This document shows, piece by piece, positions 17,633-52,292 of a stretch of 64,000 bases of DNA; position 1 is the first letter of the stretch; every line of letters starts with the position of its first letter. Source of the stretch: a virus; IMG/VR virus record IMGVR_UViG_3300041955_000247, positions 1 to 64,000 of that record. One strand, written 5' to 3'. The notes under the pieces are model-generated. The model worked only from the letters and a program-made list of their open reading frames with translations, made no database searches and was not told where the DNA came from. Made by a program: the position numbers and the translations under genes.

Positions 17633-17643
17633 GGACGCAAACG

Positions 17644-18084: not shown

Positions 18085-18096
18085 GAAAATGAACCA

Positions 18097-20048: not shown

Positions 20049-20057
20049 GAGAGCGCC

Positions 20058-20332: not shown

Positions 20333-20344
20333 GGGTTGGTTCTC

Positions 20345-33672: not shown

Positions 33673-33876
33673 TTATTTTTGCCCCATTTCCTGTGCCGGG
33701 TCTTTTGGCAGGTCATCCAGCACGTCAATAGTCTCAAGGCTGATGGATTGTCCTTGCTCCCTGCCGACTAGCCGCCCTGCGGCATAGCGGGCATTTTCCT
33801 CTGAAAAGTAAGCTCCCAAACGGCTTTTTTGGTTGACAAGATTAACACCTACAACGATGTAAAGCTTGTGTTTCAT
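33673..33876 (-). CDS. Small unknown protein
   Basis: A 67-residue protein overlapping the polymerase stop by 4 bases (ATGA). It has an alpha/beta start (MKHKLYIVVGVNLVNQKSRL), a helix (SEENARYAAGRLVGREQ) and a strand (ISLETIDVLDDLPKD). Resembles small accessory proteins beside phage polymerases; no family recognised. Confidence 0.65.
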   Translation of the reverse strand: MKHKLYIVVGVNLVNQKSRLGAYFSEENARYAAGRLVGREQGQSISLETIDVLDDLPKDPAQEMGQK

Positions 33877-36986: not shown

Positions 36987-38024
36987 TCACCCCATGTTGC
37001 TGACGACCATGTACAGCTCTTCACCCTTGCGGTACACGGTGCAGCGCTCAAGTATAGCCATTTCGTCACAAAGGCCAATAGCCCGTTGCACCATGGTGGC
37101 GGAGACATTGGCGGTGACCTGTTCTTGCCCTTTGGGGTAGGGCAACACGTCCTTGATCAGCCCCATTTGGGCATCAGTGGTCAGCCGCAAGCCGTTGTCC
37201 ACGTCAAGCACGGTTTTGGCGCTTTCAGGGTCAGCCACCACACGGGCGCGTGACAGGGCATGATCCAGCCCCTTGGGTACCGGCACAAAGCTGGGTTCAC
37301 CCTTGACGGTTTTGGTAATCAGTTCTTCATAGTCAACCGGATCGGTAGCCTCAATCAGCCGGCCATAAATTTGGTAGCCGGTGGTTAAACTGGCATACAC
37401 CCATTCCTCATTACAAAACAGGCTGCCAATTTCAGCCTTTGTCTCCCTGAAGATTTTAACCAAGGCTTCGCAGAACACGTTGGGCATCAGACATGAAATT
37501 GAATTCTTTGTCTTTGTAGTGAAGCGGGTGAGTGCATCACCGTCACAGGAATACAGCGTCATGTACTTACCGTAGGGCTGAAGATTGACGCCAAGAAGTT
37601 TTGGCTGAGCCAGATCACGCGAACTGGTCATCAAACAGGCTTCCATTCCTTCAAGGAAGGATGCATCAATTGCCACGTCAGCAGCATCCTTGCCAAAACT
37701 GGGCTTTGTGAAGACAAAATCTTCCTTTGGGAAGTAAGGCAGCTTGAAACGTGATTTGCCGGTTTTGACTGAAAGCTCTTGCTTGCTCTCAAGCGTGAAT
37801 TCCACTTCTTCAGCATGGCTATTCTTGAGCAGCCCCAAAAGCGTGCTGCCGTGCACCGCAAAGGCTTCAGCGGTTTTGCATGGGGCAATGATCCCAATGG
37901 TATCTGAATAGGCACTGACCGTTTTGGTATCAAAGCAATAGCAGCAAAAAAGGGGCACTAAATTGTTGGCCGCAAGGGCACCACCCACATATTCCAATAT
38001 CGTTACTAGTTCTGCGCGCTTCAT
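36987..38024 (-). CDS. Sliding clamp (DNA polymerase processivity factor)
   Basis: A 345-residue protein with weak but consistent clamp features: three similar beta-rich domains of about 115 residues, an N-terminal [20 protein letters not shown] helix, [20 protein letters not shown] in domain 1, and a C-terminal end [15 protein letters not shown] like the MPM(R/N) end of DnaN. Length is near bacterial DnaN (366), not T4 gp45 (228). It is next to the polymerase and overlaps the upstream gene (ATGA). Confidence 0.8.
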
Positions 38025-38299
38025 GTGCGGTCTTCCCGTGTTACCATGGACCCATATTGGTCAATCAGGATGGTCAACGCATTGTGCGCGTTCTTGGCCA
38101 TCATCATAATACGTCCCAGTGAAAAGCGGAGATCCTCAAGGTCCTGTGCCCCGGCAATTTCATAGGTGGTTATTCGTGTATTGCAGTTCGCACATACCCG
38201 ACGCCTGCGCACTGCTGGCTGCTCCTCAATATGGGCCGGGCGGCTGTCAATGATCTTCATGCCAAAGCTGCATGCCGGGCATTTGAAGCTTTCAGACAT
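38021..38299 (-). CDS. NrdR-like zinc-ribbon protein
   Basis: A 92-residue protein. The first 45 residues resemble the NrdR zinc ribbon: [17 protein letters not shown], then [20 protein letters not shown] with the two CxxC pairs. The ATP-cone of NrdR is missing; instead a helical tail follows ([20 protein letters not shown]). It may bind DNA or RNA near the clamp gene, with which it overlaps (ATGA). It is not necessarily a ribonucleotide-reductase regulator. Confidence 0.72.
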
Positions 38300-40779: not shown

Positions 40780-40839
40780 TGTAAGCCCCGTTGCTGATGA
40801 TGAAGAACCCTCAATGAATTGGTAAGGCTACAATGCCGC
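40773..40839 (-). promoter_or_regulatory. RNA hairpin that contains the sigma-like gene's start codon
   Basis: On the + strand 40773-40787 (GCGGCATTGTAAGCC) and 40826-40839 (GGCTACAATGCCGC) are inverted copies with one extra base. In the minus-strand message they form a stem of about 14 pairs with a loop near 38 bases. The ATG of the sigma-like gene (40779-40777) is in the 3' arm. A 12-codon frame (40866-40828) ends with its TAG in the 5' arm, as in translational attenuation leaders. The pairing is seen; the control is inferred. Confidence 0.5.
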
Positions 40840-40889
40840 AAGACCACGAAGCAACAGGAATAAAATTACACTCCTATGCCTTCTTGCGA

Positions 40890-40988
40890 TTACGAGCCTA
40901 TTGCCTTGTAATAGGCATACCACGTTAGATAGGTTGCGCCTTGCGTGCCTGGGCCATGCGGTTCGATAAGAGTCAATTTGAGTTTCAC
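40890..40988 (-). CDS. 32-aa small protein in the cassette array
   Basis: GTG at 40988 with AATAGGAG 5 bases before. The product (MKLKLTLIEPHGPGTQGATY, then LTWYAYYKAIGS) has a strand-turn-helix look. The upstream gene's TAG is part of the ribosome binding site, as in other members of this array. Function unknown. Confidence 0.55.
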   Translation of the reverse strand: MKLKLTLIEPHGPGTQGATYLTWYAYYKAIGS

Positions 40989-40996
40989 GGCCGCTC

Positions 40997-41143
40997 CTAT
41001 TCCTCGTTGAGGTATTTGAGAAGATCGTCCACGTTATCAAAGGAGGCTTCGGGCGGCGCTGCATCAGCCTCCATAATAGAACGCACGAAAGTGGGATCGT
41101 ATCCATCCCACCAACATCGCAATCGAAACCAAAGATCGCGCAC
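40997..41143 (-). CDS. 48-aa small protein in the cassette array
   Basis: GTG at 41143 with ATAGGAG 6 bases before. The product begins MRDLWFRLRCWWDGYDPTFV and continues acidic (ADAAPPEASFDNVDDLLKYL) to a Glu-Glu end. The last codons GAG GAA TAG are the start of the GAGGAATAGGAGCGGCC junction before the next gene. Function unknown. Confidence 0.65.
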   Translation of the reverse strand: MRDLWFRLRCWWDGYDPTFVRSIMEADAAPPEASFDNVDDLLKYLNEE

Positions 41144-41160
41144 GCCGGTCTCCTATATCT

Positions 41161-41580
41161 CTACGGGGTTGCTGGTAAAATCTGTTTGACGATCCATCTT
41201 CGCATTCGGGCAAATCGCTGCTCTGGCGTTTCTTTTATATTAAAACCAAAATCATCGTCGTTTTCAAAAACGACTTCGCGAGCCATCGCCGATGCAATCC
41301 CAAACACCGCAGACACTTTATCGGCGTCCTCATAGTCGAGGCCGAGCATATCAATGCCGCGAGCCTTGCCTACCGCGCCTATGGCACAGACAGCGCCAGT
41401 ATCAGGTTCAACAAGTTCACCGGCAATCAGTTTCTTTTCCGGTAACGCATCGAGCGCCGCAAGCATTTCCTTTAGGAAGGCTTGACCACGCCGACCTTTG
41501 ATCGCGCTGGCGACCGCACCACGGTAAAGGTAGCCAGAATTATCCTCACCATAATCATCGCTGTAGCCGCTGCGGCTCAT
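41161..41580 (-). CDS. Conserved phage/prophage protein (SRSGYSDDY family)
   Basis: A 139-residue protein with TTAGGAAG before the ATG. It starts MSRSGYSDDYGEDNSGYLYR and contains GQAFLKEMLAALDALPEKKL, AVCAIGAVGKARGIDMLGLD and ETPEQRFARMRRWIVKQI. Proteins of this type are frequent in prophages and phages of Proteobacteria. No catalytic motif is known. Its stop is in the GAGATATAGGAGAC junction. Confidence 0.75.
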   Translation of the reverse strand: MSRSGYSDDYGEDNSGYLYRGAVASAIKGRRGQAFLKEMLAALDALPEKKLIAGELVEPDTGAVCAIGAVGKARGIDMLGLDYEDADKVSAVFGIASAMAREVVFENDDDFGFNIKETPEQRFARMRRWIVKQILPATP

Positions 41581-41589
41581 GCTGGCTTC

Positions 41590-41907
41590 CTAATTCTCTT
41601 GGCCTGATTGTTGAACAATCGGCGTCGTAGGCACGCTGCACATCCCCCCGCCGCCAGTATGCTTAACGAAGAACTCAAGATGATCTGGCGAGCCTTCATC
41701 AAACACAATATCAAAGCCACACTCCCACATGCCGTCGCGTATTCGAGGCTCGACAAACTTTTTGAAACGTCCCTTGCGACCGTTGCTTAGAGTAAACTCT
41801 GTGCCGAACGGCAATCGCGCCCATATTTCTCGGATGACTTCTGGCATTTCACCGTATAGTCCCGGCAAGTGTTCATCGAGGAAGTCTTGTGCCTCGTCCC
41901 GATTCAT
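41590..41907 (-). CDS. 105-aa unknown protein in the cassette array
   Basis: ATG at 41907 with ATAGGAACCACC before it. The product starts MNRDEAQDFLDEHLPGLYGE, then VIREIWARLPFGTEFTLSNG and a beta-rich part ending FVKHTGGGGMCSVPTTPIVQ. It may be a small enzyme-like or binding domain; no family recognised. Confidence 0.65.
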   Translation of the reverse strand: MNRDEAQDFLDEHLPGLYGEMPEVIREIWARLPFGTEFTLSNGRKGRFKKFVEPRIRDGMWECGFDIVFDEGSPDHLEFFVKHTGGGGMCSVPTTPIVQQSGQEN

Positions 41908-41919
41908 GGTGGTTCCTAT

Positions 41920-41944
41920 CATGCTTATCCGGTTTAGACACACA
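41920..41944. repeat. Left arm of 25-bp inverted repeat flanking two genes
   Basis: The + strand here begins CATGCTTATCCGGTT, has three variable bases (TAG) and ends ACACACA. The same sequence with GCC in the middle is found reversed at 42533-42557, so 22 of 25 positions match. The arms enclose exactly the two genes at 41948 and 42245. It could be a recombination site or a mark of cassette insertion. Confidence 0.7.
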
Positions 41945-41947
41945 GCC

Positions 41948-42229
41948 CTACATCTTGTGTTCGAGTTTTTGTCGAGCAATCGCGGCCTGATCTTCGGCAA
42001 CAATCCGCGCGTAGTTTGCGGTTTTGGCTTCATCGTCCGCCTTGCGCCGGGCCGCAAAGCCATCAAGAGCGCGCTGGAACGCCTGCCTTGGCGTCAGCCC
42101 CTGCTTAAAAAGCGGATACCAGTGCGATGTGTAGATAGTGAACTCACCGCGCTCGTAGCCAAATTCGCCTTGAATTACGTCCTCGTCGAGGGTCTGAATC
42201 CATTTTCTAAATTGTTTGCTCTGGATCAT
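41948..42229 (-). CDS. 93-aa unknown helical protein in the flanked cassette
   Basis: ATG at 42229 behind GGGGAGAGAAACC, a ribosome binding site different from the TAGGAG type used by most genes around it. The product has a mixed N-terminus (MIQSKQFRKWIQTLDEDVIQ, GEFTIYTSHWYPLFKQGLTP) and a long helix (ALDGFAARRKADDEAKTANY). It is the first of two genes between the 25-bp inverted repeats. Function unknown. Confidence 0.65.
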   Translation of the reverse strand: MIQSKQFRKWIQTLDEDVIQGEFGYERGEFTIYTSHWYPLFKQGLTPRQAFQRALDGFAARRKADDEAKTANYARIVAEDQAAIARQKLEHKM

Positions 42230-42244
42230 GGTTTCTCTCCCCGA

Positions 42245-42499
42245 CTAGATGATCATCCGCAGCGGGATTGCATCGACGGTCGGACGCGGGTCCGCTTGCC
42301 GTTTCAGATCGCGCTCGAACTCGGCCGTCAATTCGTCAATATCCGGGTCGGATTTTGGAATTTCCGGTGCAATTCTCGTGATGAAGCACTGCACCGGAAT
42401 GCCGCCATCGGTCTCGCCCTGCCAAACACGCGCCGGAACGTCCCGGCCGCCGACTACGAGCGTCACGATCTTGCTGGTGCTCTCGATTCTGATCTTCAT
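42245..42499 (-). CDS. 84-aa conserved phage protein in the flanked cassette
   Basis: ATG at 42499 with AGAGGCGGCAA before it. The product starts MKIRIESTSKIVTLVVGGRD and contains VPARVWQGETDGGIPVQCFI and a final PTVDAIPLRMII. Near-identical short proteins are common in Rhizobiales phages and prophages, to my recollection. A beta-rich binding protein; function unknown. Confidence 0.7.
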   Translation of the reverse strand: MKIRIESTSKIVTLVVGGRDVPARVWQGETDGGIPVQCFITRIAPEIPKSDPDIDELTAEFERDLKRQADPRPTVDAIPLRMII

Positions 42500-42532
42500 T
42501 TGCCGCCTCTATATCTAGTAGGTCTCAGCGTT

Positions 42533-42557
42533 TGTGTGTGGCAACCGGATAAGCATG
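42533..42557. repeat. Right arm of 25-bp inverted repeat
   Basis: The reverse complement reads CATGCTTATCCGGTT, GCC, ACACACA and matches 41920-41944 in inverted orientation at 22 of 25 positions. It sits between the stop of the gene at 42562 and the start region of the gene at 42245. Inversion between the arms would reverse both enclosed genes relative to the array. Confidence 0.7.
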
Positions 42558-42561
42558 GTTC

Positions 42562-42753
42562 CTATTTTGGCAAGCGTATTAACTTGCGTGCGTTGGGCAG
42601 CATATTGTTATCATAATAAAGCAGCCCGGTCATGCCGTCGTCCCATCTGACGAGAACGCAATAGTCGTCAGCGCGCTCGACTACACCGTGAGATGTGGCG
42701 ACCACAACATCGGGCTGCTCAACCCGATCACCGACCTTTAGATGCGCCTTCAT
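42562..42753 (-). CDS. 63-aa beta-rich protein in the cassette array
   Basis: ATG at 42753 with AAAATAGGAGCGGTC before it. The product starts MKAHLKVGDRVEQPDVVVAT and contains HGVVERADDYCVLVRWDDGM, a layout like small SH3-type or KOW-like barrels. It ends ARKLIRLPK. Function unknown. Confidence 0.68.
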   Translation of the reverse strand: MKAHLKVGDRVEQPDVVVATSHGVVERADDYCVLVRWDDGMTGLLYYDNNMLPNARKLIRLPK

Positions 42754-42757
42754 GACC

Positions 42758-42785
42758 GCTCCTATTTTGCTAATGCCGTTCGCGG
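42758..42785. repeat. 28-bp direct repeat, copy 1
   Basis: This segment (starting GCTCCTATTTTGCTAATGCC and ending GTTCGCGG) is repeated without change at 43240-43267. It spans the LAK-stop end of one gene and the ribosome binding site of the next. Confidence 0.8.
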
Positions 42786-42968
42786 CGAAAGTTTCTGTTT
42801 GACGGCACTCCAACGCACACGCCGCCGCGACAGTTCATTCTCTATCATTTTTAGGTTGCCGTAGATAATATCAGTCGGCATTCCACAGTCGCGGCGGCGC
42901 TTGAAATAGATGTTGATACGCTCCTGCAAATGGAGCAATCGCTCCGTATCTATTTCAGCCACGCGCAC
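42762..42968 (-). CDS. 68-aa helical protein in the cassette array
   Basis: GTG at 42968 behind ATAGGAG. The product starts MRVAEIDTERLLHLQERINI, is rich in Arg and Leu (YFKRRRDCGMPTDIIYGNLK) and ends TALAK. The LAK-stop ending (GCAAAATAG) is shared with the genes at 44025, 45788 and 45930 because the stop is part of a conserved junction. Function unknown. Confidence 0.65.
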   Translation of the reverse strand: MRVAEIDTERLLHLQERINIYFKRRRDCGMPTDIIYGNLKMIENELSRRRVRWSAVKQKLSPRTALAK

Positions 42969-42979
42969 GCGAAAAACTC

Positions 42980-43234
42980 CTATACCTTCAGGCTGATTGC
43001 ATCCGAAAAGAAAGTCTCGGCTTTTGTTCGCAACCCAGTATGGTGATCCATCATCTTAGCGCCGCTGATTTTGTATTCGGCAAATGCGGTTTTTACCTCC
43101 TGCTCAGAGAGGCCGAGTGCGCACTGAATATCGAACACAACGCACCGCAAGTGACCGAGGCGCCGCAGTGCGCGTAGGTATTCGTTGATAGCCGTAGCTA
43201 TCTCTCTAGATGATGGCCGAGGAACGCTGGACAC
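42980..43234 (-). CDS. 84-aa helix-turn-helix-like protein in the cassette array
   Basis: GTG at 43234 with AAAATAGGAGCCAAAC before it. The product has helices SSREIATAINEYLRALRRLG, CVVFDIQCALGLSEQEVKTA (a plausible helix-turn-helix) and a short tail. It may bind DNA. Family not recognised. Confidence 0.62.
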   Translation of the reverse strand: MSSVPRPSSREIATAINEYLRALRRLGHLRCVVFDIQCALGLSEQEVKTAFAEYKISGAKMMDHHTGLRTKAETFFSDAISLKV

Positions 43235-43239
43235 GTTTG

Positions 43240-43267
43240 GCTCCTATTTTGCTAATGCCGTTCGCGG
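43240..43267. repeat. 28-bp direct repeat, copy 2, with gene remnant
   Basis: Identical to 42758-42785. At copy 1 the repeat covers the end of a gene; here only the last codons (TALAK then stop) remain and the frame upstream closes at a TGA. The 80 bases 43235-43315 therefore look like the scar of a deleted or exchanged cassette. No intact gene is seen in them. Confidence 0.65.
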
Positions 43268-43315
43268 TCATGCACCCAACGGCCCTTGCGATCATTTGTT
43301 CACGCAAGCAGTCTC

Positions 43316-43573
43316 CTATTTTGACTTTGGCGGTTTAGGCAAAGGCATCCAATGTGTCATGCCCACCCAATTAGGTTCTTCATCGCCATCACATAAATGC
43401 CACTCGCAGAGACAGCTACACCAGAACATGACAACATAATCAGAACGGGGCTTATCGCCCTTGGCTGGCTTCCCGTATCCCAAACGGGGCTTATCGCCCT
43501 TGGCTGGCTTCCCGTATCCCAAAATGCTGCGTCCGTCTTTCGGCGCAGTTTTGATGGATTGCCACGCGCTCAT
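43316..43573 (-). CDS. DUF551-like protein with internal tandem duplication
   Basis: An 85-residue protein with AATAGGAGCGGCC before ATG. It has the DUF551 frame: MSAWQSIKTAPKDGR at the start, a middle VVMFWCSCLCEWHLCDG, and the ending MTHWMPLPKPP. A 13-residue unit (LGYGKPAKGDKPR) occurs twice in tandem near residues 18-43, coded by an exact 39-bp DNA repeat. DUF551 proteins are common in phages and of unknown function. Confidence 0.78.
   Translation of the reverse strand: MSAWQSIKTAPKDGRSILGYGKPAKGDKPRLGYGKPAKGDKPRSDYVVMFWCSCLCEWHLCDGDEEPNWVGMTHWMPLPKPPKSK
43444..43521. repeat. 39-bp perfect tandem duplication
   Basis: Two exact copies of 39 bases, 43444-43482 and 43483-43521, inside the DUF551-like gene. 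The length keeps the frame. No base differs, so the duplication is recent or under active slippage. Confidence 0.9.
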
Positions 43574-43581
43574 GGCCGCTC

Positions 43582-43830
43582 CTATTCCTCGTCGGGCTTA
43601 TTGACGACATTGTAACCAGCCGCGTTCGATTTGCCATCTTCGTGCATGAACCAATACGCAGACATCAAGCCGCCTGTGGTGGACTCGTCAATGCCGAGGC
43701 GATGAATTTGACGAGTAGGAAAAGAGCCATCAGCGCGTGGTCCCCATTGCTTCCAGCCAGCGAAATTTGTCTCAACAAGAACACACGATTCACCGTTCTC
43801 AAACTGAATTGGCTTGTTCCAATCAATCAC
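43582..43830 (-). CDS. 82-aa conserved phage protein in the cassette array
   Basis: GTG at 43830 with AATAGGAGCGGGTAGC before it. The product starts MIDWNKPIQFENGESCVLVE, then NFAGWKQWGPRADGSFPTRQ and a YWFMHEDGKSNAAGYNVVNK part. Similar short proteins with the WNKPIQFENGE start occur in many phages. Ends Glu-Glu, part of the junction GAGGAATAGGAGCGGCC. Confidence 0.72.
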   Translation of the reverse strand: MIDWNKPIQFENGESCVLVETNFAGWKQWGPRADGSFPTRQIHRLGIDESTTGGLMSAYWFMHEDGKSNAAGYNVVNKPDEE

Positions 43831-43841
43831 GCTACCCGCTC

Positions 43842-44015
43842 CTATTTTGACTTTGGTTTACCGTTGACAGCTTCTATTGCAAATCGCCGAAGGGCATCTG
43901 CTGGACAAGCCGTGGCTCGATGTATTCGCCTTAGCTCACGTTCGTAGTAGCGCGCAACGCGGCGAAATGCTTTCCAGTCCTTCGGTCCAAGTTCGACCCT
44001 CGATAATCGGGACAT
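43842..44015 (-). CDS. 57-aa basic protein in the cassette array
   Basis: ATG at 44015 with GCAAAATAGGAGTGCGGC before it. The product (MSRLSRVELGPKDWKAFRRV, then ARYYERELRRIHRATACPAD) is helical and Arg-rich and ends KPKSK. The next junction follows directly. Function unknown; possible nucleic acid binding. Confidence 0.62.
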   Translation of the reverse strand: MSRLSRVELGPKDWKAFRRVARYYERELRRIHRATACPADALRRFAIEAVNGKPKSK

Positions 44016-44024
44016 GCCGCACTC

Positions 44025-44213
44025 CTATTTTGCTAGTTCGATTTCAGCGACGAGGCCAAGAAGGTCCCGCTCCATCGCGTCCAACTCTTTAAGCCGAGAG
44101 GCGATTTGTTTGCGCTCCGCGTCGATTTTGCCTAGGCGGCCATCCACGCAATCGCATGACGCATAATGATGGTTCATCTTACCGCAGCTTTGGCACTTCC
44201 GGGGCAAACGCAC
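44025..44213 (-). CDS. 62-aa zinc-knuckle plus coiled-coil protein
   Basis: GTG at 44213 with GGAATAGGAGCGGCC before it. Residues 7-25 contain CQSCGKMNHHYASCDC, a likely zinc site. The rest is a coiled coil (ERKQIASRLKELDAMERDLL) ending ELAK. Function unknown. Confidence 0.65.
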   Translation of the reverse strand: MRLPRKCQSCGKMNHHYASCDCVDGRLGKIDAERKQIASRLKELDAMERDLLGLVAEIELAK

Positions 44214-44221
44214 GGCCGCTC

Positions 44222-44434
44222 CTATTCCTTCATCGCCTGTTTGGCGTGTTGCTTACAGAACCTTTGATCCGGCCCATAGCCACGTCTGCGGCGGCACTGA
44301 TGGAACAAATAAGACACTCCATCGGCAACCTCTGCAATGCAATCGCCCCATCGCTCGGCGTGGCCGTTCGGGTTACCAGCCCATGCGCCATACCGGCGCT
44401 TGCCGTCTTTTCCGGGGTTGGGGACGAGAACCAC
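44222..44434 (-). CDS. 70-aa Cys/His-rich protein in the cassette array
   Basis: GTG at 44434 with ATAGGAGACTCGT before it. It has a beta-rich N-terminus (RRYGAWAGNPNGHAERWGDC) and a C-terminal Cys/His set (LFHQCRRRRGYGPDQRFCKQ, then HAK) that could bind zinc. Short proteins with this RGYGP-Q-FCKQHAK ending are frequent in phages. Function unknown. Confidence 0.68.
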   Translation of the reverse strand: MVLVPNPGKDGKRRYGAWAGNPNGHAERWGDCIAEVADGVSYLFHQCRRRRGYGPDQRFCKQHAKQAMKE

Positions 44435-44443
44435 ACGAGTCTC

Positions 44444-45061
44444 CTATATCTCTTTCCGCTTCCTGTCCGCCGCGCGCTTGCGCACGAATCGGCCTTTCCC
44501 GACCTGCTTCCAGTGGCCGTACACACTGGCGGTCGAAACCCCCAGCTTCTCGGCCACCTTGGGGCCGGTCATGCCGCCGTTTAGAAGCTCGCCCACGCGC
44601 TTAATTCTGTCGGGTGTCATGTACACTTTCGGCCCCCAACTCTTGTCCTTGCGGCGCGCTCGTAGCGCGGCAATGCCCGCAGAGGTTCGCTGCGCGATGA
44701 TCTGGCGCTCGAACTCGGCAACAAGGCCTAAAACACCAAGCACAAGTTTCCCCGATACAGTCCCGAAGTCGAAGTTTTCTTGGAGCGAGCGAAAATACGC
44801 GCCTTTGGCGTAAATTGCGTCGAGGCGAGCGTAAAGCTGCCGCATAGACCGCGCCAGCCGGTCAAGCCGCCACACAACGAAAGTATCGCCTTCGCGTAAA
44901 TCCTTGATGGCGTAATCCAGCGCCGGGCGCTTAGCGGATGCCCCGGATACCTTTTCAACGTGCAGATTGTCCGGCTTGACCCCCGCCGCCTTGAGGGCGT
45001 CGGTTTGCAGGTCAAGCGATTGATCTTCGGTCGAGACGCGGGCATAGCCGACAAGTGCCAT
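44444..45061 (-). CDS. Small serine recombinase (resolvase/invertase family)
   Basis: A 205-residue protein. The catalytic domain has YARVSTEDQ with Ser10, then YAIKDLREGDTFVVWRLDRL with the conserved Arg residues, and the E-helix with EFERQIIAQRTSAGIAALRA. The C-terminus is a helix-turn-helix (GPKVAEKLGVSTASVYGHWK) for site binding. The size matches Tn3 resolvase and Hin/Gin. It is the first gene of the minus-strand half of the array, 97 bases from the divergent gene. It could invert or resolve DNA nearby, for example at the repeats found in the array. Confidence 0.92.
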   Translation of the reverse strand: MALVGYARVSTEDQSLDLQTDALKAAGVKPDNLHVEKVSGASAKRPALDYAIKDLREGDTFVVWRLDRLARSMRQLYARLDAIYAKGAYFRSLQENFDFGTVSGKLVLGVLGLVAEFERQIIAQRTSAGIAALRARRKDKSWGPKVYMTPDRIKRVGELLNGGMTGPKVAEKLGVSTASVYGHWKQVGKGRFVRKRAADRKRKEI

Positions 45062-45087
45062 TTCCTGTACCTAAGCAGATTGGCAGC

Positions 45088-45130
45088 ATACTATATGGGA
45101 CTTGACAACCTGTCAAGACCGTGATTTGAT
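45088..45130. promoter_or_regulatory. Bidirectional promoter with -35 boxes inside one palindrome
   Basis: CTTGACA (45101-45107), ACC, TGTCAAG (45111-45117) is a perfect palindrome whose halves are TTGACA boxes facing opposite ways. On the + strand TTGACA (45102-45107) is 17 bases from TTTGAT (45125-45130). On the minus strand TTGACA (45116-45111) is 17 bases from TAGTAT (45093-45088), or 15 from TATAGT. The two promoters share the palindrome, so one bound protein could switch both. The recombinase is a candidate. Confidence 0.6.
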
Positions 45131-45157
45131 TAAAAGACAGAATGGAGATTCAGGCCG

Positions 45158-45454
45158 ATGCCATGCTATCAGCCCAATGGAACGCCACTGACTGACCGAG
45201 AGCGTGAAGTGTTGGTCATTCTGATGGAAGAATGCGCCGAGGTCATTCAGGCAGCGAGCAAGCTGATCCGGTTTGGCAAAGAGACCCGTCCCGATGATTT
45301 GCATTTGCCGAATAGCGAAGTTCTCGGCATCGAGATTGGCGATCTAAAATGTATGATTGACAATGTGTTGTTCGAGGGGATCATCAGCCAAGAACACTTG
45401 ACGCTCGGCGCGAAACGCAAGCAAGCTCGGCTTGCTCAGTATATGCAGACGTAA
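45158..45454 (+). CDS. MazG-like nucleotide pyrophosphohydrolase-type protein
   Basis: A 98-residue all-helical protein. The pattern LVILMEECAEVIQAASKLIR carries the EExxE metal site, and GIEIGDLKCMIDNVL carries the ExxD partner, as in MazG-type phosphohydrolases. Short relatives are common in phages of Rhizobiales. It may cut non-canonical nucleotides or alarmones. It is the first gene of the rightward half, 28 bases after the promoter. Confidence 0.75.
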   Translation: MPCYQPNGTPLTDREREVLVILMEECAEVIQAASKLIRFGKETRPDDLHLPNSEVLGIEIGDLKCMIDNVLFEGIISQEHLTLGAKRKQARLAQYMQT

Positions 45455-45471
45455 ATTGAAGGAATAGGCCG

Positions 45472-45795
45472 ATGGTTCAGACGCGCGATTTTCCCACTGC
45501 CGTTATCGCATCAATTTCGACCGGCATATTGCTCTGTGACTTTGGCAAGATGCAGGAAGCGGCCGAGTATCTCATGGGGCACCCGATCTGGACGCATCAT
45601 TTCGCTGACAAAACTCTTACTTTGGAAATGAAACGAACGATTGCCGAGCAATGTCCTGGTATGCCGATGGAGATTGATGGTGTGACGAAGGACAACTATC
45701 TGGAAAAACTAGCCGTCATCGAAGCTGAAATCGGCAAGACCGTTCGCATCCGTAAGGGCCGCGGCCTCACCGCGATGTTGCCGGCCGGTGGTTGA
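45472..45795 (+). CDS. Conserved phage/prophage protein
   Basis: A 107-residue protein with GGAATAGGCCG just before ATG. It starts MVQTRDFPTAVIASISTGIL and contains MQEAAEYLMGHPIWTHHFAD and LTLEMKRTIAEQCPGMPMEI. Similar proteins with the GHPIWTHHFA core are widespread in phages and prophages; function unknown. The next gene starts within its last codons. Confidence 0.72.
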   Translation: MVQTRDFPTAVIASISTGILLCDFGKMQEAAEYLMGHPIWTHHFADKTLTLEMKRTIAEQCPGMPMEIDGVTKDNYLEKLAVIEAEIGKTVRIRKGRGLTAMLPAGG

Positions 45796-45925
45796 GAACT
45801 GCGCCGTCGATGATTGTCGCAAGCGCGAATATATCGCGGAGATCGAGTTGCTTCGCGCGGAGATCGAGGCGCTTAAACTTGAAATCAAGATGTACGAACA
45901 GAGGTTTGCCGAGTTGGCAAAATAG
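45788..45925 (+). CDS. 45-aa coiled-coil protein in the cassette array
   Basis: GTG at 45788 overlaps the previous stop. The product (MVENCAVDDCRKREYIAEIE, then LLRAEIEALKLEIKMYEQRF) is a coiled coil ending AELAK. The last 25 bases with the stop are repeated exactly at 46205-46229. Function unknown. Confidence 0.6.
   Translation: MVENCAVDDCRKREYIAEIELLRAEIEALKLEIKMYEQRFAELAK
45901..45925 (+). repeat. 25-bp direct repeat at gene ends, copy 1
   Basis: The last 25 bases of this gene (GAGGTTTGCCGAGTTGGCAA plus AATAG) are identical to 46205-46229. Both copies end in the stop codon and encode RFAELAK. This matches a recombination junction between cassettes. Confidence 0.85.
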
Positions 45926-45929
45926 GCCG

Positions 45930-46229
45930 ATGACAGCGGATTTGGGTAAAGAGGCGTTTTATGCGTCCTTGGCGATTATTGGCTTCGTTCTGGGAATGCT
46001 CGGCATTCATTGTCATCGATGGAACTCCTTACTACGAGTAGCCGCAATCTTTTTTGGCTTATTCCTCTGTGCCTTTGGCCTCGGTTCTACTTTGATCGTG
46101 CGTTCTGAGCGCGTCTCCGCCGCCCCCGGGATCATAATCGCCCTTTCGCCTTTGGCCCTGACCGATCCAAGGCTTTTGAAACCCATAGAAAACGGGAGGC
46201 TTACGAGGTTTGCCGAGTTGGCAAAATAG
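45930..46229 (+). CDS. Membrane protein in the cassette array
   Basis: ATG at 45930, with AATAGGCCG before it. The 99-residue product has a first helix (FYASLAIIGFVLGMLGIHCH), a second (LLRVAAIFFGLFLCAFGLGS), and a third weaker one (APGIIIALSPLAL). It ends RFAELAK, coded by the 25-bp repeat. It may be a small integral membrane protein; function unknown. Confidence 0.65.
   Translation: MTADLGKEAFYASLAIIGFVLGMLGIHCHRWNSLLRVAAIFFGLFLCAFGLGSTLIVRSERVSAAPGIIIALSPLALTDPRLLKPIENGRLTRFAELAK
46205..46229 (+). repeat. 25-bp direct repeat at gene ends, copy 2
   Basis: Identical to 45901-45925. The bases that follow differ (CCCGC instead of GCCGA), so the identity stops at the stop codon. Confidence 0.85.
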
Positions 46230-46249
46230 CCCGCTAATACGGAATTAAC

Positions 46250-46354
46250 ATGGATCAACGCACACGAACACTGTTGCTCGCGATTTACGGCACCAAGGCT
46301 GCGGCTGGAGTAATTGTGTTAGCCGTGCTGCTTATCTATCACTTCTGGGGCTGA
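46250..46354 (+). CDS. 34-aa single-span membrane protein
   Basis: ATG at 46250. The product (MDQRTRTLLLAIYGTKAAAG, then VIVLAVLLIYHFWG) has a short basic lead and one membrane helix. It overlaps the next gene at TGATG. Ribosome binding site is weak (GGAATTAAC). Function unknown. Confidence 0.55.
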   Translation: MDQRTRTLLLAIYGTKAAAGVIVLAVLLIYHFWG

Positions 46355-46530
46355 TGGTGATGCGCGGAACGATAATCGTTGCCTCCGTTGTATTTGGGGG
46401 GGTCCTCGGTGGGCAACAGCAACCATTTGCGGCTGGGCTGTTCTTTGGTCCGGTCTGTTTGCCTGCTACGATTTGGCGCGTTAATGACAGATTAACAGGA
46501 ACAAGGAATAGGCCGCTAATGCGTCGTTAG
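46354..46530 (+). CDS. 58-aa membrane protein
   Basis: ATG at 46354 overlaps the previous stop (TGATG). The product has two hydrophobic stretches (TIIVASVVFGGVLGG, FAAGLFFGPVCLPATI) and a basic end that runs into the next ACAAGGAATAGGCCG junction. The pair could be a two-component small membrane set. Function unknown. Confidence 0.55.
   Translation: MVMRGTIIVASVVFGGVLGGQQQPFAAGLFFGPVCLPATIWRVNDRLTGTRNRPLMRR
46501..46515 (+). repeat. Cassette junction repeat ACAAGGAATAGGCCG, copy 1
   Basis: The 15-base sequence recurs at 46849-46863 and in shorter form (GGAATAGGCCG) at 45460-45471. It marks gene borders in the rightward half of the array. Confidence 0.7.
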
Positions 46531-46544
46531 TCGGGATTTGCACG

Positions 46545-46832
46545 ATGATCGAAATGGTTCCTAGGCCCCACATCGTTCGCCGCACTTGTGGCGGTTACTT
46601 GGCCGTTGCATCAAAGCGAGCCCGGTTCCGAATTGGCGTCACGGCGGAAACAGAGGCGGCGGCCGAACATAAGTTCTGGTTCACCTACGTCCGATGGTGC
46701 GAACTGGTCCCACTGGAAGCTGTCGGCGAGTGCACCCAATTAACAGCGCCTCATCTTCGTGGTGAGCGTGAGCCTATCGAGAGGTTGGCTTGGGGGTGCA
46801 CTCACCAGCAGCGTCAAACAAAATCGGTCTAA
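46545..46832 (+). CDS. 95-aa conserved phage protein, last of the array
   Basis: ATG at 46545 (or 46554). The product contains PRPHIVRRTCGGYLAVASKR, then ARFRIGVTAETEAAAEHKFW, a layout seen in short phage proteins of Rhizobiales. The end (ERLAWGCTHQQRQTKSV) is unlike them and may be the product of a cassette exchange. Function unknown. Confidence 0.68.
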   Translation: MIEMVPRPHIVRRTCGGYLAVASKRARFRIGVTAETEAAAEHKFWFTYVRWCELVPLEAVGECTQLTAPHLRGEREPIERLAWGCTHQQRQTKSV

Positions 46833-46848
46833 CACGGGGTTAGCAGAA

Positions 46849-46863
46849 ACAAGGAATAGGCCG
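46849..46863 (+). repeat. Cassette junction repeat, copy 2 (right border)
   Basis: Same 15 bases as 46501-46515. It lies directly against the stop of the minus-strand primase gene at 46865, so it marks the right border of the inserted array. Confidence 0.7.
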
Positions 46864-46864
46864 G

Positions 46865-47809
46865 TTATAATTGCAAGACTTGCTTTGCAGTAAGCAGGCC
46901 GGGGTCTTTCACCCCTGACGGCAACATAGCAATTTGCACATTGGCCCCCGGCAGGCTGTCGCAAAGGCTCAGCGCACTACCTAAAGCTTCGCTGTCAAAC
47001 AGCACCCGCACCTTGTCATACTTTGGAATGAGCGCTTGCAGGGCAGCAAGTTGCCCCGCCGTGGGGTTAACCCCAAAAGTGCAGGTGGCCCGATGCCCAT
47101 GTGGTGCCCCGTAGTAATCCACCTTGATGGCGTCAAACGGCCCCTCTGTCACAAACAGCGTCTCACCGCCGTGACTGAGATCATGCTCATTGAACACCAC
47201 GGTTTTGATAGCCGCCGACGAACTGAGATAGCGCGGTGCGTGAGTGGTAGGTTGAATGGCGCGGGCTGTCCAACCCGCCAGTTCGCCGTTGCTTTGCTGA
47301 ATGGGTATGATGATCCGGTCCTTCCACCTGCCATGCTGGCAGCACAACAAGTCGTATTGCTCAATCAGGGTGCTAACATCATCAAAGCCCCTGCCCTCAA
47401 GGTACCGCCAAAAACGCCCTGTAAGCCCCGTGGGCTTGATTTGCCTAAATTCAGGGGGTAGCTGGCTGGGCAATTCATCACGCTGTACGGGCTGCGCTGA
47501 GCCACCCAGGGCCATTATGGCCTGCTCAAGGGTTTCAGGGTCGGCGGCGCTGTGCTGCCCCACAATCAACCGGGCTTGGCTGAATGAACAGCTCAGCAGG
47601 GCCGCCACAAGGCTGTAGGGCTTGCGCCCAGCGTGCTTGGCGTTGCGCCAGCAGCCAAAGGCGTCCTTGGTCAGTGAGATGGAAAGATGTTCGCTTGGAT
47701 CATCAGGACCGCACCAGGGGCACTTTAGGGCAAGCTGGCCCTTTCGGACGTTAGGCCCACTGGTGACATAATCAATATGATTGGCTTCTAGGAACGCTAC
47801 CCAGTCCAT
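46865..47809 (-). CDS. DNA primase (zinc-ribbon and Toprim domains)
   Basis: A 314-residue protein. The N-terminus has a CHC2-like zinc ribbon (LALKCPWCGPDDPSEHLSIS, then FGCW). Residues about 215-300 form a Toprim domain: ETLFVTEGPFDAIKVDYYGA with the catalytic Glu, and KVRVLFDSEALGSAL with the D-x-D-like metal site changed to DSE. The middle holds HGRWKDRIIIPIQQSNGELA. It is short for DnaG but has both key domains. It would prime replication with the DnaB-like helicase at 50883. Confidence 0.85.
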   Translation of the reverse strand: MDWVAFLEANHIDYVTSGPNVRKGQLALKCPWCGPDDPSEHLSISLTKDAFGCWRNAKHAGRKPYSLVAALLSCSFSQARLIVGQHSAADPETLEQAIMALGGSAQPVQRDELPSQLPPEFRQIKPTGLTGRFWRYLEGRGFDDVSTLIEQYDLLCCQHGRWKDRIIIPIQQSNGELAGWTARAIQPTTHAPRYLSSSAAIKTVVFNEHDLSHGGETLFVTEGPFDAIKVDYYGAPHGHRATCTFGVNPTAGQLAALQALIPKYDKVRVLFDSEALGSALSLCDSLPGANVQIAMLPSGVKDPGLLTAKQVLQL

Positions 47810-48192
47810 CAGTATGGTATCTCGTTGACAGGTGCTACATCAAATTCAACAAAGCTGGTGCGTTGATTGGCCCGCTGTTCTTTCTTGGTAGCCCATTGGC
47901 AATTGTCCTTAAAGTAACCGAGATTGCCGTCTTTGCGGTCCAAAGTCATTTCCCTGCAAGGTCGCTCACCCATGTCCTCGAGGAAGTTCCTGAAGGCATC
48001 AGGCGAACCGCGCCGCCAGCGTTCGCAGACCTCAATGCCACGGCCACCATACAAATGGTACCACTTGTGGGTGCTTTGATAGCAACGCGAATTCATGGAT
48101 TCCCACGACAAGTAAGTGGGTGATTTCTTGACCTTCCATTTGCCTTTGATGTTGCGGGTGCGTGACGTGTGGCCGTGGCGCTTCCCTGTCAT
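47809..48192 (-). CDS. HNH endonuclease, free-standing
   Basis: A 127-residue protein overlapping the GcrA-like gene (ATGA). It has the phage HNH pattern YLSWESMNSRCYQSTHKWYH, YGGRGIEVCERW, then MTLDRKDGNLGYFKDNCQWA with the Asp/Asn and His-like metal residues, and ATKKEQRANQR. A basic lead suits DNA binding. It is probably a homing-type nuclease placed inside the replication operon. Confidence 0.85.
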   Translation of the reverse strand: MTGKRHGHTSRTRNIKGKWKVKKSPTYLSWESMNSRCYQSTHKWYHLYGGRGIEVCERWRRGSPDAFRNFLEDMGERPCREMTLDRKDGNLGYFKDNCQWATKKEQRANQRTSFVEFDVAPVNEIPY

Positions 48193-48737
48193 TTATAGGC
48201 CCTCATGGCATGATGGTTACAATACGTGTGGTCGGTCCATGCACCACAAAAGAAAAAGTCTTTGTCACCCACGTCTCCAACGGCCCATCGGCATGTGTGG
48301 CCGTTGAGTTGCAGCAGTGTAAGCCGCTGTTCCTGAGGAATGGCTTTATCGTATTCTGAGGGTTTGATATGAATGGGTTCGGTGGGGGTGCTGTCGGGTA
48401 TGTCAACGGCAAGGGCGATACGGAGGCGTCGCTTCTTGGTGAAATGGGTGTAGGCTTGAATAACCTTTTGCGGATTGGGCTGAACTGGTCTGACTGTTGC
48501 ACCTTTGGCCCGATGCCGGGGGCGGCCTCCTGGGCTGGCCTTGTTCTTGAAAATATGTAAACGGTGCATTTTGCCTATGACGGCATTACGGGTGGCAAAC
48601 CCTAGTTTGTCGGCTATTGCACTGGCTGATAATCCAGCCGCTGCATATTCTCTAAGCTCAGCCTCTTTCTTTTTGTCCCATCCTGGGTTCTGGTTCTGTT
48701 TGTACTTTTGTTCGGACGGTGTATCCAAATATGTCAC
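48189..48737 (-). CDS. GcrA-family cell-cycle regulator
   Basis: A 182-residue protein. The N-terminal helix-turn-helix is like GcrA: AGLSASAIADKLGFATRNAV, IGKMHRLHI. After a basic Pro-rich linker the C-terminus has CRWAVGDVGDKDFFFCGAWT and YCNHHAMRAY, the GcrA Cys-rich end. In Caulobacter GcrA works with sigma-70 RNA polymerase at promoters with methylated GANTC. A phage copy could redirect host transcription in the S-phase programme. This is the clearest sign of an alphaproteobacterial host. Confidence 0.85.
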   Translation of the reverse strand: MTYLDTPSEQKYKQNQNPGWDKKKEAELREYAAAGLSASAIADKLGFATRNAVIGKMHRLHIFKNKASPGGRPRHRAKGATVRPVQPNPQKVIQAYTHFTKKRRLRIALAVDIPDSTPTEPIHIKPSEYDKAIPQEQRLTLLQLNGHTCRWAVGDVGDKDFFFCGAWTDHTYCNHHAMRAYK

Positions 48738-48748
48738 GTAACCCCTCC

Positions 48749-50299
48749 TCAGAGTTTGGTACGCCCAGCGATGATTGATTGTAGCAAGTTCTCACCAGCG
48801 AGGTTGCTGGCATGTAAAGCGAAATCTTTGGTTTGCCGGACCAGCAAATCATAGATCAGTACCCGCTTTGACTGACCGGGACGCCATACCCGGCGCTCCG
48901 CTTGCTGGCGGTCAATGGGGTTGTCGGGCTGTTCGAAAAACACAAGATAGTTTGCGAACTGAAGATTGAGGCTTGATGAACCCGACCTGACATTGATCAC
49001 CAGCACGCGCACGTTAGGGTCTGATTTGAATTTCTGCAACTGGCCAATGGGATCACGTGATTTGCCCCATACCCGTGCGTGCTTGATTTTAAGCTCTGTG
49101 AGCCGGTCACTGATAAGCTGGTTGGTGTACACAAAATGGTGAAAGATAACCATCTTGGAAGTGGAAGGCATGGACTCAATCAGGTCAACCAATGCTTCCA
49201 GCTTTGGGTTGTCTTCAAACTTGACCTGTAGCTTTTCGTTGTCCTCCCCACGCAGCGTCATGAAGCCGGATGAGAGCTGCCTGAGTCTTAGGTAGCTGTT
49301 TTCGGCCTCTTTCAGCTTGCCACCCTTGATGGCCTCATAGAACTGCTTCAAGGCTGCCTTGCAGTATCCCTCGCTGTCCTTTGGTGCGGGCAGTGACTTC
49401 TTGACGTAAATCTTGGGTGGCATATCGTGCAGCTCGTCAATGCCATAATAGATGGACCTGTTCTTCACCATGCGGTGCAGGTCAGGTTCGAGCTTTTTCT
49501 TGAATGTGAACTCGTAGCCGCCCCAGTAATTCGTGCCCTCTGAGTAGAACACGGCCCTGAAGAACTCAACGGTGGTGCCCAGCGTTTCACCAAAATCAAT
49601 CAGGTTGAACTGCGGTTGCAGCCCAATGGGGTCCTTGCCAAAGGGTGTCCCGGTGAGGCCAAAGGCCCATTCACACTGGGAACTGATGGCTTTGCACATG
49701 CGGTAGGTGAGTGACGAAGCAGATGAGCATTTGTGTATTTCGTCACACACCAGCATATCAAAACCGGCGAAGTATTCCTTCACCTGCTTGGCTGTGAGTT
49801 GCCATTTGTTCTTACCCTTGCGCTTGTCAAAGACGGTTTCAGTTACCATGGCGACCGCACTTTGGTAGCAGATCACGAACAGGTCACCAGGGGTTTGTAA
49901 GGCCGCTAGGTTCTCAGTAGATGAACCGAGGAGTGGCACTATGCGTAGATGAGGGGCCTTATCGGCAACTTCATCAATCCATGTCAGTACGCTGGTGATG
50001 TAGGGGACAAACACAATTGCCTTTGGGTTGTCCCCGCGCTGCTTCCTGTAGCTCAGCAGCATCAAAGATAAAGCCGTCTTGCCCCCACCCATGTCAATGT
50101 TAAACATGAAGCGTTTTATCTCAAGCATCAGTAGAAAACAAGCCGTTTGGTGTTCCCAAGGAATCAGCTTGCCAAACTCTGGCTTGGGTGTGAGACTGGC
50201 CAGTTCCTGATCTAGCTGTGGCTTGCGGTAGGCTTTCACAAAATCATAGTTTTGGAGCTTGCGCTCAAGGAACCGCTTGATGGCACGCTTGTTGATCAC
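48749..50299 (-). CDS. SNF2-type helicase/ATPase
   Basis: A 516-residue two-domain helicase. Motifs: Q-like start, Walker A (NIDMGGGKTALS near 72), Ia (IVFVPYITSVLTWIDE), DEIH box (MLVCDEIHKC near 185), III (FGLTGTPFGKDP), V (VINVRSGSSSLNLQFA) and VI (DRQQAERRVWRPGQ). These are typical of SNF2/Rad54-like proteins. T4 UvsW has a comparable role in remodelling forks and recombination intermediates, which may be its job here. Confidence 0.9.
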   Translation of the reverse strand: MINKRAIKRFLERKLQNYDFVKAYRKPQLDQELASLTPKPEFGKLIPWEHQTACFLLMLEIKRFMFNIDMGGGKTALSLMLLSYRKQRGDNPKAIVFVPYITSVLTWIDEVADKAPHLRIVPLLGSSTENLAALQTPGDLFVICYQSAVAMVTETVFDKRKGKNKWQLTAKQVKEYFAGFDMLVCDEIHKCSSASSLTYRMCKAISSQCEWAFGLTGTPFGKDPIGLQPQFNLIDFGETLGTTVEFFRAVFYSEGTNYWGGYEFTFKKKLEPDLHRMVKNRSIYYGIDELHDMPPKIYVKKSLPAPKDSEGYCKAALKQFYEAIKGGKLKEAENSYLRLRQLSSGFMTLRGEDNEKLQVKFEDNPKLEALVDLIESMPSTSKMVIFHHFVYTNQLISDRLTELKIKHARVWGKSRDPIGQLQKFKSDPNVRVLVINVRSGSSSLNLQFANYLVFFEQPDNPIDRQQAERRVWRPGQSKRVLIYDLLVRQTKDFALHASNLAGENLLQSIIAGRTKL

Positions 50300-50670: not shown

Positions 50671-50899
50671 GGGCTTTGGCCTTGCATTTGAGACTGTAGG
50701 CGTAGGCGTGGAAGTAGTTGGAGAAACAGTATCCATCTTTGGCATCTGATTCGTATAAAAAATTGAACCAGCTCGTATCAGGGCAAACAAAGCGTTTTTG
50801 AAGGTATCCATCTGAAGCAAAGACAACATACCAGGGGCCTCGCATTGTACGGGCTTCAAGTATTGTTAACGTCCCTGGGGGACTAGGCTTCCTCTTCAT
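50648..50899 (-). CDS. Unknown protein with HAYA motif
   Basis: ATG at 50899 overlaps the helicase stop by 17 bases; an earlier ATG at 50941 is possible. The 83-residue product is beta-rich (GPWYVVFASDGYLQKRFVCP) and ends NYFHAYAYSLKCKAKARD. The same motif ends the gene downstream. Probably a duplicated pair. Confidence 0.6.
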   Translation of the reverse strand: MKRKPSPPGTLTILEARTMRGPWYVVFASDGYLQKRFVCPDTSWFNFLYESDAKDGYCFSNYFHAYAYSLKCKAKARDPVDTA

Positions 50900-52292
50900 C
50901 GTCAAACCCATCTTGCGGTATGTTTTCGAAGTAGTTGCCAACCATCAGGGAACTATCAACAACGAAAGTGCCCATGCCATACTGCTGGCTGATTACAATG
51001 CTTATCTTGTCCTGATCACTACGCCCTGCCGCTACGAACAGCCGGGCCAAGCCCAGCTTACGTTCCTGCGGGGTTTGGGTATAGGTGATGTTAGTGTCAC
51101 TGTTAGCCACCGTGCCATAGGCTTCACCCACGTTTTCAGCGCCCACCTGCTTTGATTTGGCGGCAGCCCGGTGTGATTGGCTCACCACCGCTGCCGCTAG
51201 GTTACGCTTCACCGCAATGCCACGTATGTCCATAAACGCTTGGTCAAGGTCAAGTCTGATATTGGTGGGATCCAGCTTCATCAGACGCGGATAGTCAACA
51301 ATCAGCAAATCAGGCGTGAACCGTTCGGTCTGCTCCAGGTTGTCCAAGTAGGCTTCCAAGTGCCTCACCGTCAGTGAGCCGGTAGGGAAGTCACGGATCA
51401 CAATGTTCTCAAGCAGCCGGTCGGCATAGCGGTCAATGCGCCGCTCAAGCTTGCGCCTGATCTTAGGGTCGTCATAGCTCAACGAGGGCTGTACCCGCAC
51501 GTCCTTGTAGCCGGTAATGCGGCCAAGTTTGTCCTTCTCAAACTTGGTGTTCCTGAAGGTCTCTTTGCGCTTTGAAATGGCGAACAGGCTTTGGTAGTAC
51601 CGTTGAGCGCAGCGCTCACGCGACATTTCCAAGCTGATATGGCATATTTTCAGCCGGTGCAGCGCGGCCATTTTGGCAAGCTGGATGAGCATCCATGTCT
51701 TGCCTGACTTGGTATTGGCAATGAAATGCCACAGCTCCTTGCGCGTAGGGCCAAATGACCGTTTGTCCAATTCAGGAATGCCGGTGGGGAAGCTGTGCTC
51801 CTGCATGTCCAGGAAGGACAACGACTTCTTGTCGCTGAGCCTGATGCCGGGGTCAAAGACACTCAGCGTTTGAGTGTTGGCCTTGGCCATGAGGTTCGCG
51901 GCTTCCTCAAGTGATTCCTCGGTGTCCTTCAATAGTGCCTTGTTGAAATCAACCGCTATGGCGCGCAATGATTGCCGCTTGACGTAAGTCTCCAACTGAG
52001 ACATCACGTAGGGAATATTTATCGTAGATGAGGCATCATGGATGCTCGTAATGGTATCTTCATACAGTTGGGCCTCGCGCCCAATCTTGCTGTCCAGCTT
52101 GTCGCTTAGAATATCAGCAATATGATCTTTGGGGGCCTTCTTGAACCTGTCAATGTAGTCGTAAATTCTACTACTGATTTGTCGATAATGGCCGCCGAAA
52201 AGCTCCAAGGGCACGGTGTTGCGAATGATGATTGCCTGCTCAGTGTGATAGGCAAGCAATACGATAATGTTCTCTTGAAGAATACCTAACAT
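50883..52292 (-). CDS. Replicative DNA helicase (DnaB/gp41-like)
   Basis: A 469-residue protein. The N-terminal 150 residues are helical as in DnaB. The RecA-type domain has FIANTKSGKTWMLIQLAKMA (Walker A near 195), HISLEMSRERCAQRYYQSLF (the H1a/Glu region), PDLLIVDYPRLMKLD (Walker B), then AAAVVSQSHRAAAKSKQVGA and an arginine-rich end before QQYGMGTFVVD. It unwinds the fork with the primase at 46865. The likely loader is unknown. Confidence 0.88.
   Translation of the reverse strand: MLGILQENIIVLLAYHTEQAIIIRNTVPLELFGGHYRQISSRIYDYIDRFKKAPKDHIADILSDKLDSKIGREAQLYEDTITSIHDASSTINIPYVMSQLETYVKRQSLRAIAVDFNKALLKDTEESLEEAANLMAKANTQTLSVFDPGIRLSDKKSLSFLDMQEHSFPTGIPELDKRSFGPTRKELWHFIANTKSGKTWMLIQLAKMAALHRLKICHISLEMSRERCAQRYYQSLFAISKRKETFRNTKFEKDKLGRITGYKDVRVQPSLSYDDPKIRRKLERRIDRYADRLLENIVIRDFPTGSLTVRHLEAYLDNLEQTERFTPDLLIVDYPRLMKLDPTNIRLDLDQAFMDIRGIAVKRNLAAAVVSQSHRAAAKSKQVGAENVGEAYGTVANSDTNITYTQTPQERKLGLARLFVAAGRSDQDKISIVISQQYGMGTFVVDSSLMVGNYFENIPQDGFDDEEEA

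Follow-up and report, generated by a model that had tools for sequence, protein, structure and literature searches.

A 64,000-nucleotide stretch of viral DNA (the window hereafter; positions 1 to 64,000 of the 76-kb virus record IMGVR_UViG_3300041955_000247 in IMG/VR) carries, between its primase gene and a gene for a 174-residue protein, an island of about 21 tiny open reading frames (ORFs) and one 205-residue serine recombinase. We read this island tentatively, with a confidence that falls a little short of calling it probable, as a mobile, two-armed gene-cassette platform of phages on which the recombinase would catalyse exchange. Comparison shows that the constant part is a Gin/Hin-type small serine recombinase gene with its divergent promoter, and that the variable parts are two outward-reading arrays, in which each cassette is made up of an ORF with a short spacer and a tail, the latter holding the stop codon and an AGG core. 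The enzyme would cut in or beside AGG and join over a two-base overlap, and the bases after AGG (AG in one arm, CC in the other) would separate the arms and keep the genes correctly oriented. The phage would thereby obtain a fast turnover of accessory genes, as from an integron served by a serine recombinase.

Island architecture and junction sequences

The best-supported limits of the island are 40871–46863, with an orphan junction site at each end. An earlier note, made from the letters alone, had described about 20 tiny genes with recurring border forms around 40828–46864, a serine recombinase at their centre and an interruption of the replication operon, and all of this was borne out. Every junction form it quoted is present at its place, the recombinases of relatives are also central in divergent arrays, and the corresponding site is empty elsewhere: in L001, a relative with a primase 70% identical to that of the window, the two genes that flank the island adjoin with no insert, in L237 the next backbone gene directly follows the primase, and the replication operon of Edwardsiella phage ZHS is likewise unbroken.

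The recombinase gene (44444–45061, minus strand) splits the island into two outward-reading arms of tiny genes, which we call the right arm (the recombinase strand, at lower window coordinates) and the left arm (the opposite strand); gene calls below 50 codons are uncertain in both. Its product matches Pfam PF00239 (Resolvase, 2.9e-38) and a PHROG DNA invertase (8.8e-56), and its nearest PDB relative, annotated as a DNA-invertase (3.3e-33), aligns through residue 181. Residues R8, S10, D67, R68 and R71 are invariant across nine recombinase homologues, while the C-terminus matches HTH_7 at an E-value of 0.0019, weaker than the curated cut-off. The divergent promoter region (45062–45157), delimited by aligning the upstream regions of L010–L018, includes a palindrome, TTGACAACCTGTCAA (45102–45116), with two overlapping −35-like hexamers, which is kept in most relatives. 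DNA homology to close loci spans just the interval from about −105, at this palindromic promoter, to the recombinase stop codon, which makes the recombinase and its divergent promoter, as judged from these alignments, the sole conserved part of the island.

The window holds 18 copies of the motif ATAGGAG, where shuffled sequences predict 3.2 and none of 100 shuffles reached 18, and 12 of the copies lie on the minus (recombinase) strand at 40871–44447. All four window matches of AATAGGCCG (0.34 expected) are on the plus strand at 45463–46863, and eight of the nine copies of AATAGGAG in the 76-kb record fall within the island; junction forms in the arrays include AATAGGAG and AATAGGCC. Over ten loci, the 72 right-arm cores comprised 69 AGGAG, two AGGCC and one AGCCC, and the 35 left-arm cores 27 AGGCC, eight AGCCC and no AGGAG, where the left-arm total is not an unbiased rate, its two cores having been picked after inspection, although AGGAG was sought there equally. 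A looser scan of 53 left-arm gene starts found GGAG at nine and GGCC at 28. The upstream tails GTCAAAATAGG, GAAGGAATAGG and ATATAGAGG occur in both arms ahead of the arm-specific bases, and the information content of the junction covers about the last 9 nt of the upstream gene and falls to almost nothing past the core. The conserved part measures only about 14 bp. Apart from the shortness of the motifs, nothing speaks for chance or codon bias as the origin of this pattern, an explanation that we rate as practically nil and that the segregation by strand and arm already refutes. Codon bias alone, which the earlier note had named as a possible undoing of its claim, is excluded both by codon use, which differs between island and backbone genes beyond the subsampling range, and by the lack of a second dense AGGAG junction cluster anywhere in the 76-kb record.

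TAG is a real gene stop at nine of the 12 TAGGAG sites and, on the plus strand, at positions 45923 and 46227. The proposal that the TAG stop of one gene forms part of the binding site of the next holds in the right arm but fails in the left, and because AATAGGCCG is not a Shine-Dalgarno sequence, a shared stop and ribosome-binding site fits the recombinase-strand arm alone. It fails as well at six orphan sites (43246, 41155, 40876, 45465, 46509 and 46857), where TAG closes merely 7–28 open codons and the usual tail is mostly kept, and of which two are the ends of the island. On another view the junctions serve translation only: the right arm would use Shine-Dalgarno pairing, the left arm stop-start reinitiation, and the likeness of the junctions would be due to convergence. 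This view is consistent with a distance from core to start that peaks at 10–11 nt in the right arm (5–6 nt after AGGAG) and is shorter, mostly 8–10 nt, in the left, and with GAAGGA further upstream at some left junctions. It is made very unlikely by orphan sites that keep their tail though no gene ends there, by the duplication of a non-coding unit between the same junctions (see below) and by identical tail families on unrelated genes. Ribosome binding does not account for the difference in core between the arms, since AGGCC is not a Shine-Dalgarno sequence; it would follow from the rule that serine recombinases join over a two-base overlap.

Relatives of the island and breakpoints of exchange

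A search that started from the recombinase and was extended by aligning nine homologues delimited a clade of loci 50–85% identical; all relatives with arrays are metagenome contigs, several of them incomplete. In at least nine uncultured phage contigs, a recombinase 50–85% identical to that of the window is central in divergent tiny-gene arrays. In all eight array genomes, examined whole or in large part, AGGAG junctions are clustered most densely on the strand of the recombinase and at most 5 kb from its gene, and a relative without the recombinase (G001) has no such cluster. Below 50% identity the association is mostly lost (mean of ~0.3 array junctions per arm), and because the best recombinase in bacterial genomes is 48% identical, no host with the array in a prophage was identified. 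Among cultured phages, Megablast found no match to the region, and tblastn of the joined window cassettes against phages returned three records only. When viral contigs were scanned for exact 16-base junctions, 19 matches were obtained, one of which (L039, on the same contig as L042) is a true array; the other records tested had a marginal recombinase-like match at most. A de novo 6-mer search at recombinases ~57–64% identical revealed no alternative motif pair.

Comparison shows that the recombinase module has moved between distantly related phages. The recombinase of G016 is 85% identical to that of the window, whereas identity is only 32–38% for the primase, helicase, SNF2 protein and polymerase, and the island of G016 does not follow the primase but is placed beyond the helicase. 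The different backbone positions would also fit a recombinase that inserts, inverts or resolves the whole island or phage genome and leaves single cassettes alone, as would the closeness of the protein to invertases and the orientation of the island in L063 and L054, which is opposite in the two contigs relative to the genes for Erf and a RecE-like protein that flank the array on one side. We consider such a role improbable, given that neither long inverted repeats nor a pair of inverted dyad crossover sites were found at the island ends, that one site orientation runs throughout each arm and that moves of single cassettes with junction breakpoints would require a separate cause.

The earlier note saw in the array an accessory-gene loading dock, an idea that conserved gene order and content in relatives would contradict. 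This is not the case, as gene content is nearly all different between the window array and the arrays that share its recombinase: no window cassette has a DNA-level relative in the clade loci, the recombinase excepted, and the DUF551 cassette has protein relatives in four loci. The note had suggested looking for changes of gene order at exact junctions, and the relatives support exchange at such points: some single cassettes occur in duplicate and others in more than one phage, with the breakpoints in the stop/AGG core. Two different phages, L041 and L063, have one left-arm cassette in common (98% over 229 bp) with both ends at junctions, the end exactly at TAG and the beginning just past the preceding stop. 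A 511-bp cassette is present in two copies in L046 with AGGAG at both bounds, and L063 contains two copies of a 69-bp non-coding unit, itself containing an inverted repeat, with the same AGGAG bounds. Recent cassette copies and transfers are mostly 98–100% identical, and one is non-coding. Among nine cassette-type blocks (a set chosen after seeing the list, leaving out the recombinase gene, the promoter and simple tandem repeats), 11 of the 16 scorable ends fall inside the stop/AGG junction, against a chance of 0.17 per end for random positions scored under the same generous rule, and eight blocks have at least one end at a junction. This comparison shows duplication and truncation of cassettes as well as their exchange from phage to phage, the breakpoints lying within the core. 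The loading-dock idea is supported to this extent, with the recombinase appearing as its organiser; the short homology that the note gave as the cause of exchange is possible.

Candidate causes of exchange and known systems

Shuffling by short homology would proceed through general or annealing recombination (RecA-like, Erf/RecE) or illegitimate events, with only those joints surviving that keep a stop and a ribosome-binding site, and with the recombinase as a passenger or in use for another purpose. This account, close to that of the earlier note, is a credible contender that we nevertheless hold to be less than probable. Short common letters (AGGAG, AGGCC, TAG) are present at the junction breakpoints, an Erf annealing protein and a RecE-like exonuclease adjoin the array in L063 and L054 (Erf occurs in three of the eight array genomes), the window phage encodes a RecA-like protein, and there is a parallel in the start-associated sequences of Cluster K mycobacteriophages (PMC3203893). 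Yet no ERF, RecT or Rad52 match was found in the remaining array genomes, including that of the window (some are fragments), the common junction stretches amount to merely 4–14 bp, and such shuffling leaves unexplained the left-arm AGGCC, the retained orphan sites and the tie to one recombinase clade. What favours the recombinase as the cutter is the association with this clade, together with the conserved active site, the existence of orphan sites, the duplication of a non-coding unit and the bases specific to each arm, and we would place recombinase catalysis slightly ahead of short homology.

Several observations weigh against a platform run by the recombinase. A two-sided dyad, which Gin/Hin sites should have, is missing from the junctions, as is a downstream half-site, and right-arm cores are not strictly AG, since TAGGAA and TAGGGG also occur. 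AGGAG is equally expected from selection for ribosome binding, and only the left-arm CC opposes translation alone. The RecA-like protein or Erf/RecE encoded by several array phages could act on short homology, and the conserved divergent promoter alone could attract accessory genes. In L044, L054 and L061 it is the opposite arm that holds homologues of the DUF551 protein, so that the isolation of the arms is not absolute over long times. L043 has a recombinase 78% identical and the conserved promoter, yet shows no array junctions in the available sequence. Finally, no rearranged form, circular cassette or population variant was observed, and two contig pairs thought to be variants of one phage (L054/L055, 100% identical, and L050/L051, 99.97% over the array) showed no rearrangement.

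With somewhat more reserve than for the platform itself, we suggest an analogue of the integron based on a serine recombinase, in which an invertase-family enzyme would capture, duplicate and swap cassettes at a minimal stop/AGG junction, the arms being split into AG and CC. As in integrons, a constant recombinase gene stands beside a promoter, single-gene cassettes share one orientation, one junction element lies at the 3′ end of each cassette, and duplication and exchange appear, from most of the nine recent blocks, to be bounded by junctions. An integron consists of the tyrosine recombinase IntI, attI and attC, whereas the island has a serine recombinase, two arms instead of one, a phage as its carrier, a short purine-rich AGG junction in place of a folded attC and a catalysis that we infer; it may work like an integron but is not one, as recombinase family and site type differ. 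To the Gin/Hin invertases the protein is similar in recombinase family, catalytic residues, size and, putatively, a C-terminal helix-turn-helix-like region, but no pair of dyad crossover sites was found around one invertible segment. The boundary sequences of lambdoid phages are short conserved border elements tied to the shuffling of small phage genes. T4-type promoter-stem-loop (PeSL) cassettes (Arbiol 2010, cited in PMC4503421) place an early promoter and a stem-loop at each gene border and are linked to small phage gene shuffling. Both resemble the island in having short conserved gene-border elements linked to small-gene shuffling, and both differ in that theirs are promoter/terminator or homology elements, whereas here stop/AGG junctions are tied to a serine recombinase.

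Of the junction elements known so far, the Cluster K start-associated sequences come nearest: a repeated element containing the same ATAGGAG lies just upstream of the starts of unrelated small genes and sometimes includes the stop codon of the preceding gene (PMC3203893). Those are genome-wide, with one motif, no recombinase at a centre and no second form described, while here the likeness reaches into the tail of the upstream gene and an AGGCC version exists. The Cluster K consensus GGGATAGGAGCCC is not matched: the core ATAGGAG is found in the right arm only, the flanks differ and the left arm has AGGCC. Serine transposases of the IS607 family recombine at a two-base GG and otherwise show little target specificity (PMC6188088), which is a mechanistic precedent only, as IS607 has an inverted domain order and its own transposon ends. 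Among the titles and abstracts listed from open-licence papers, no serine recombinase with a cassette array or phage accessory-gene hotspot was recognisable as the system of the island.

It is an open question how the many tiny orphan genes of phages are acquired and lost, and a recurring platform of this kind makes it directly testable. The defined recombinase, cassette borders and two arms would permit a junction-based collection of accessory genes, possibly for host takeover or anti-defence, from metagenomes, and if the recombinase acts on the junctions, the island would represent a new kind of gene-capture system.

Cassettes of the island and neighbouring genes

The window cassettes are nearly all orphans. 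An anti-defence function found no support, as none of ten cassettes had a match in PADLOC, although that library covers genes for defence and not for anti-defence. The stop of the recombinase (ATATAGGAG) is the first right-arm junction, from which the minus-strand cassettes read outward in the following order: 70 residues (44222–44434, between the ATATAGGAG and GAATAGGAG junctions), 62 residues with weak zinc-knuckle similarity (44025–44213), 57 residues (43842–44015), 82 residues (43582–43830) and 85 residues (DUF551, 43316–43573). Within the DUF551 cassette, a perfect 39-bp tandem duplication (43444–43521) adds 13 residues in frame. Next comes a cassette remnant (43235–43315) that holds a perfect 28-bp copy (43240–43267) of the tail and junction at 42758–42785, followed by cassettes for 84 (42980–43234), 68 (42762–42968), 63 (42562–42753), 84 (42245–42499), 93 (41948–42229, weak DUF5419 similarity) and 105 residues (41590–41907). 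The outermost encode 139 residues (41161–41580; PHROG 25637, DUF6197-like, with ~52% identity to a Pseudomonas phage YA3 protein), 48 residues (40997–41143) and 32 residues (40890–40988), and the arm ends in the orphan ATAGGAG at 40871–40877, where no gene ends. A 25-bp inverted repeat (41920–41944 and 42533–42557, 88%), with ATAGGAACC beside each copy, surrounds two right-arm cassettes and may be the trace of an old inversion; a 12-bp inverted repeat at 40772/40829 was dismissed as expected by chance.

On the plus strand, the left arm opens with a 98-residue protein resembling nucleoside triphosphate pyrophosphohydrolases (45158–45454; PHROG 4856, 4.4e-15), and continues with cassettes for 107 residues (DUF7736, 45472–45795), 45 residues with a C-terminal ELAK and the junction AATAGGCCG (45788–45925), and 99 residues (45930–46229), with a FAELAK tail as in its neighbour (a 25-bp copy). 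Two small ORFs, of 34 residues (46250–46354) and, doubtfully, 58 residues (46354–46530, spanning an orphan AATAGGCCG), precede the last cassette (95 residues, 46545–46832). The outermost site, an orphan AATAGGCCG at 46855–46863, touches the primase stop codon at 46865. Among the relatives, L044 encodes related Gly-Tyr-Ser-Gly-Asp repeat proteins in opposite orientation on both sides of its recombinase (about −1089 to −634 and +8159 to +8782 relative to that gene), with a further relative in L046 (−370 to −71).

The replication genes of the window are those for primase (46865–47809), an SNF2-type helicase (48749–50299), a DnaB-like helicase (50883–52292) and DNA polymerase (33873–36422); they are akin to those of Vibrio and Edwardsiella phages of 71–79 kb (primase identity 30–34%). 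L001 carries a different small-gene array upstream of its primase (7385–10000), with neither a recombinase nor shared stop/ribosome-binding junctions, directly after an HNH endonuclease gene whose likeness to that of the window ends at residue 54. It also has inteins in a DNA methylase (12569–14608, with a LAGLIDADG domain) and in its DNA polymerase (16693–20709), of which the window homologues are free. At 38021–38299, the window encodes a small protein with an NrdR-type zinc ribbon only, the rest of NrdR being absent. A homologue of the cell-cycle regulator GcrA is encoded at 48189–48737 (Pfam, 99 bits), and related genes are present in L042, L044, L061 and L063; as the distribution of GcrA is alphaproteobacterial, the host of the phage is probably an uncultured alphaproteobacterium. 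The window polymerase belongs to family A and has an N-terminal uracil-DNA glycosylase domain, uniting glycosylase, exonuclease and polymerase in one protein, a fusion that is also found in L001.

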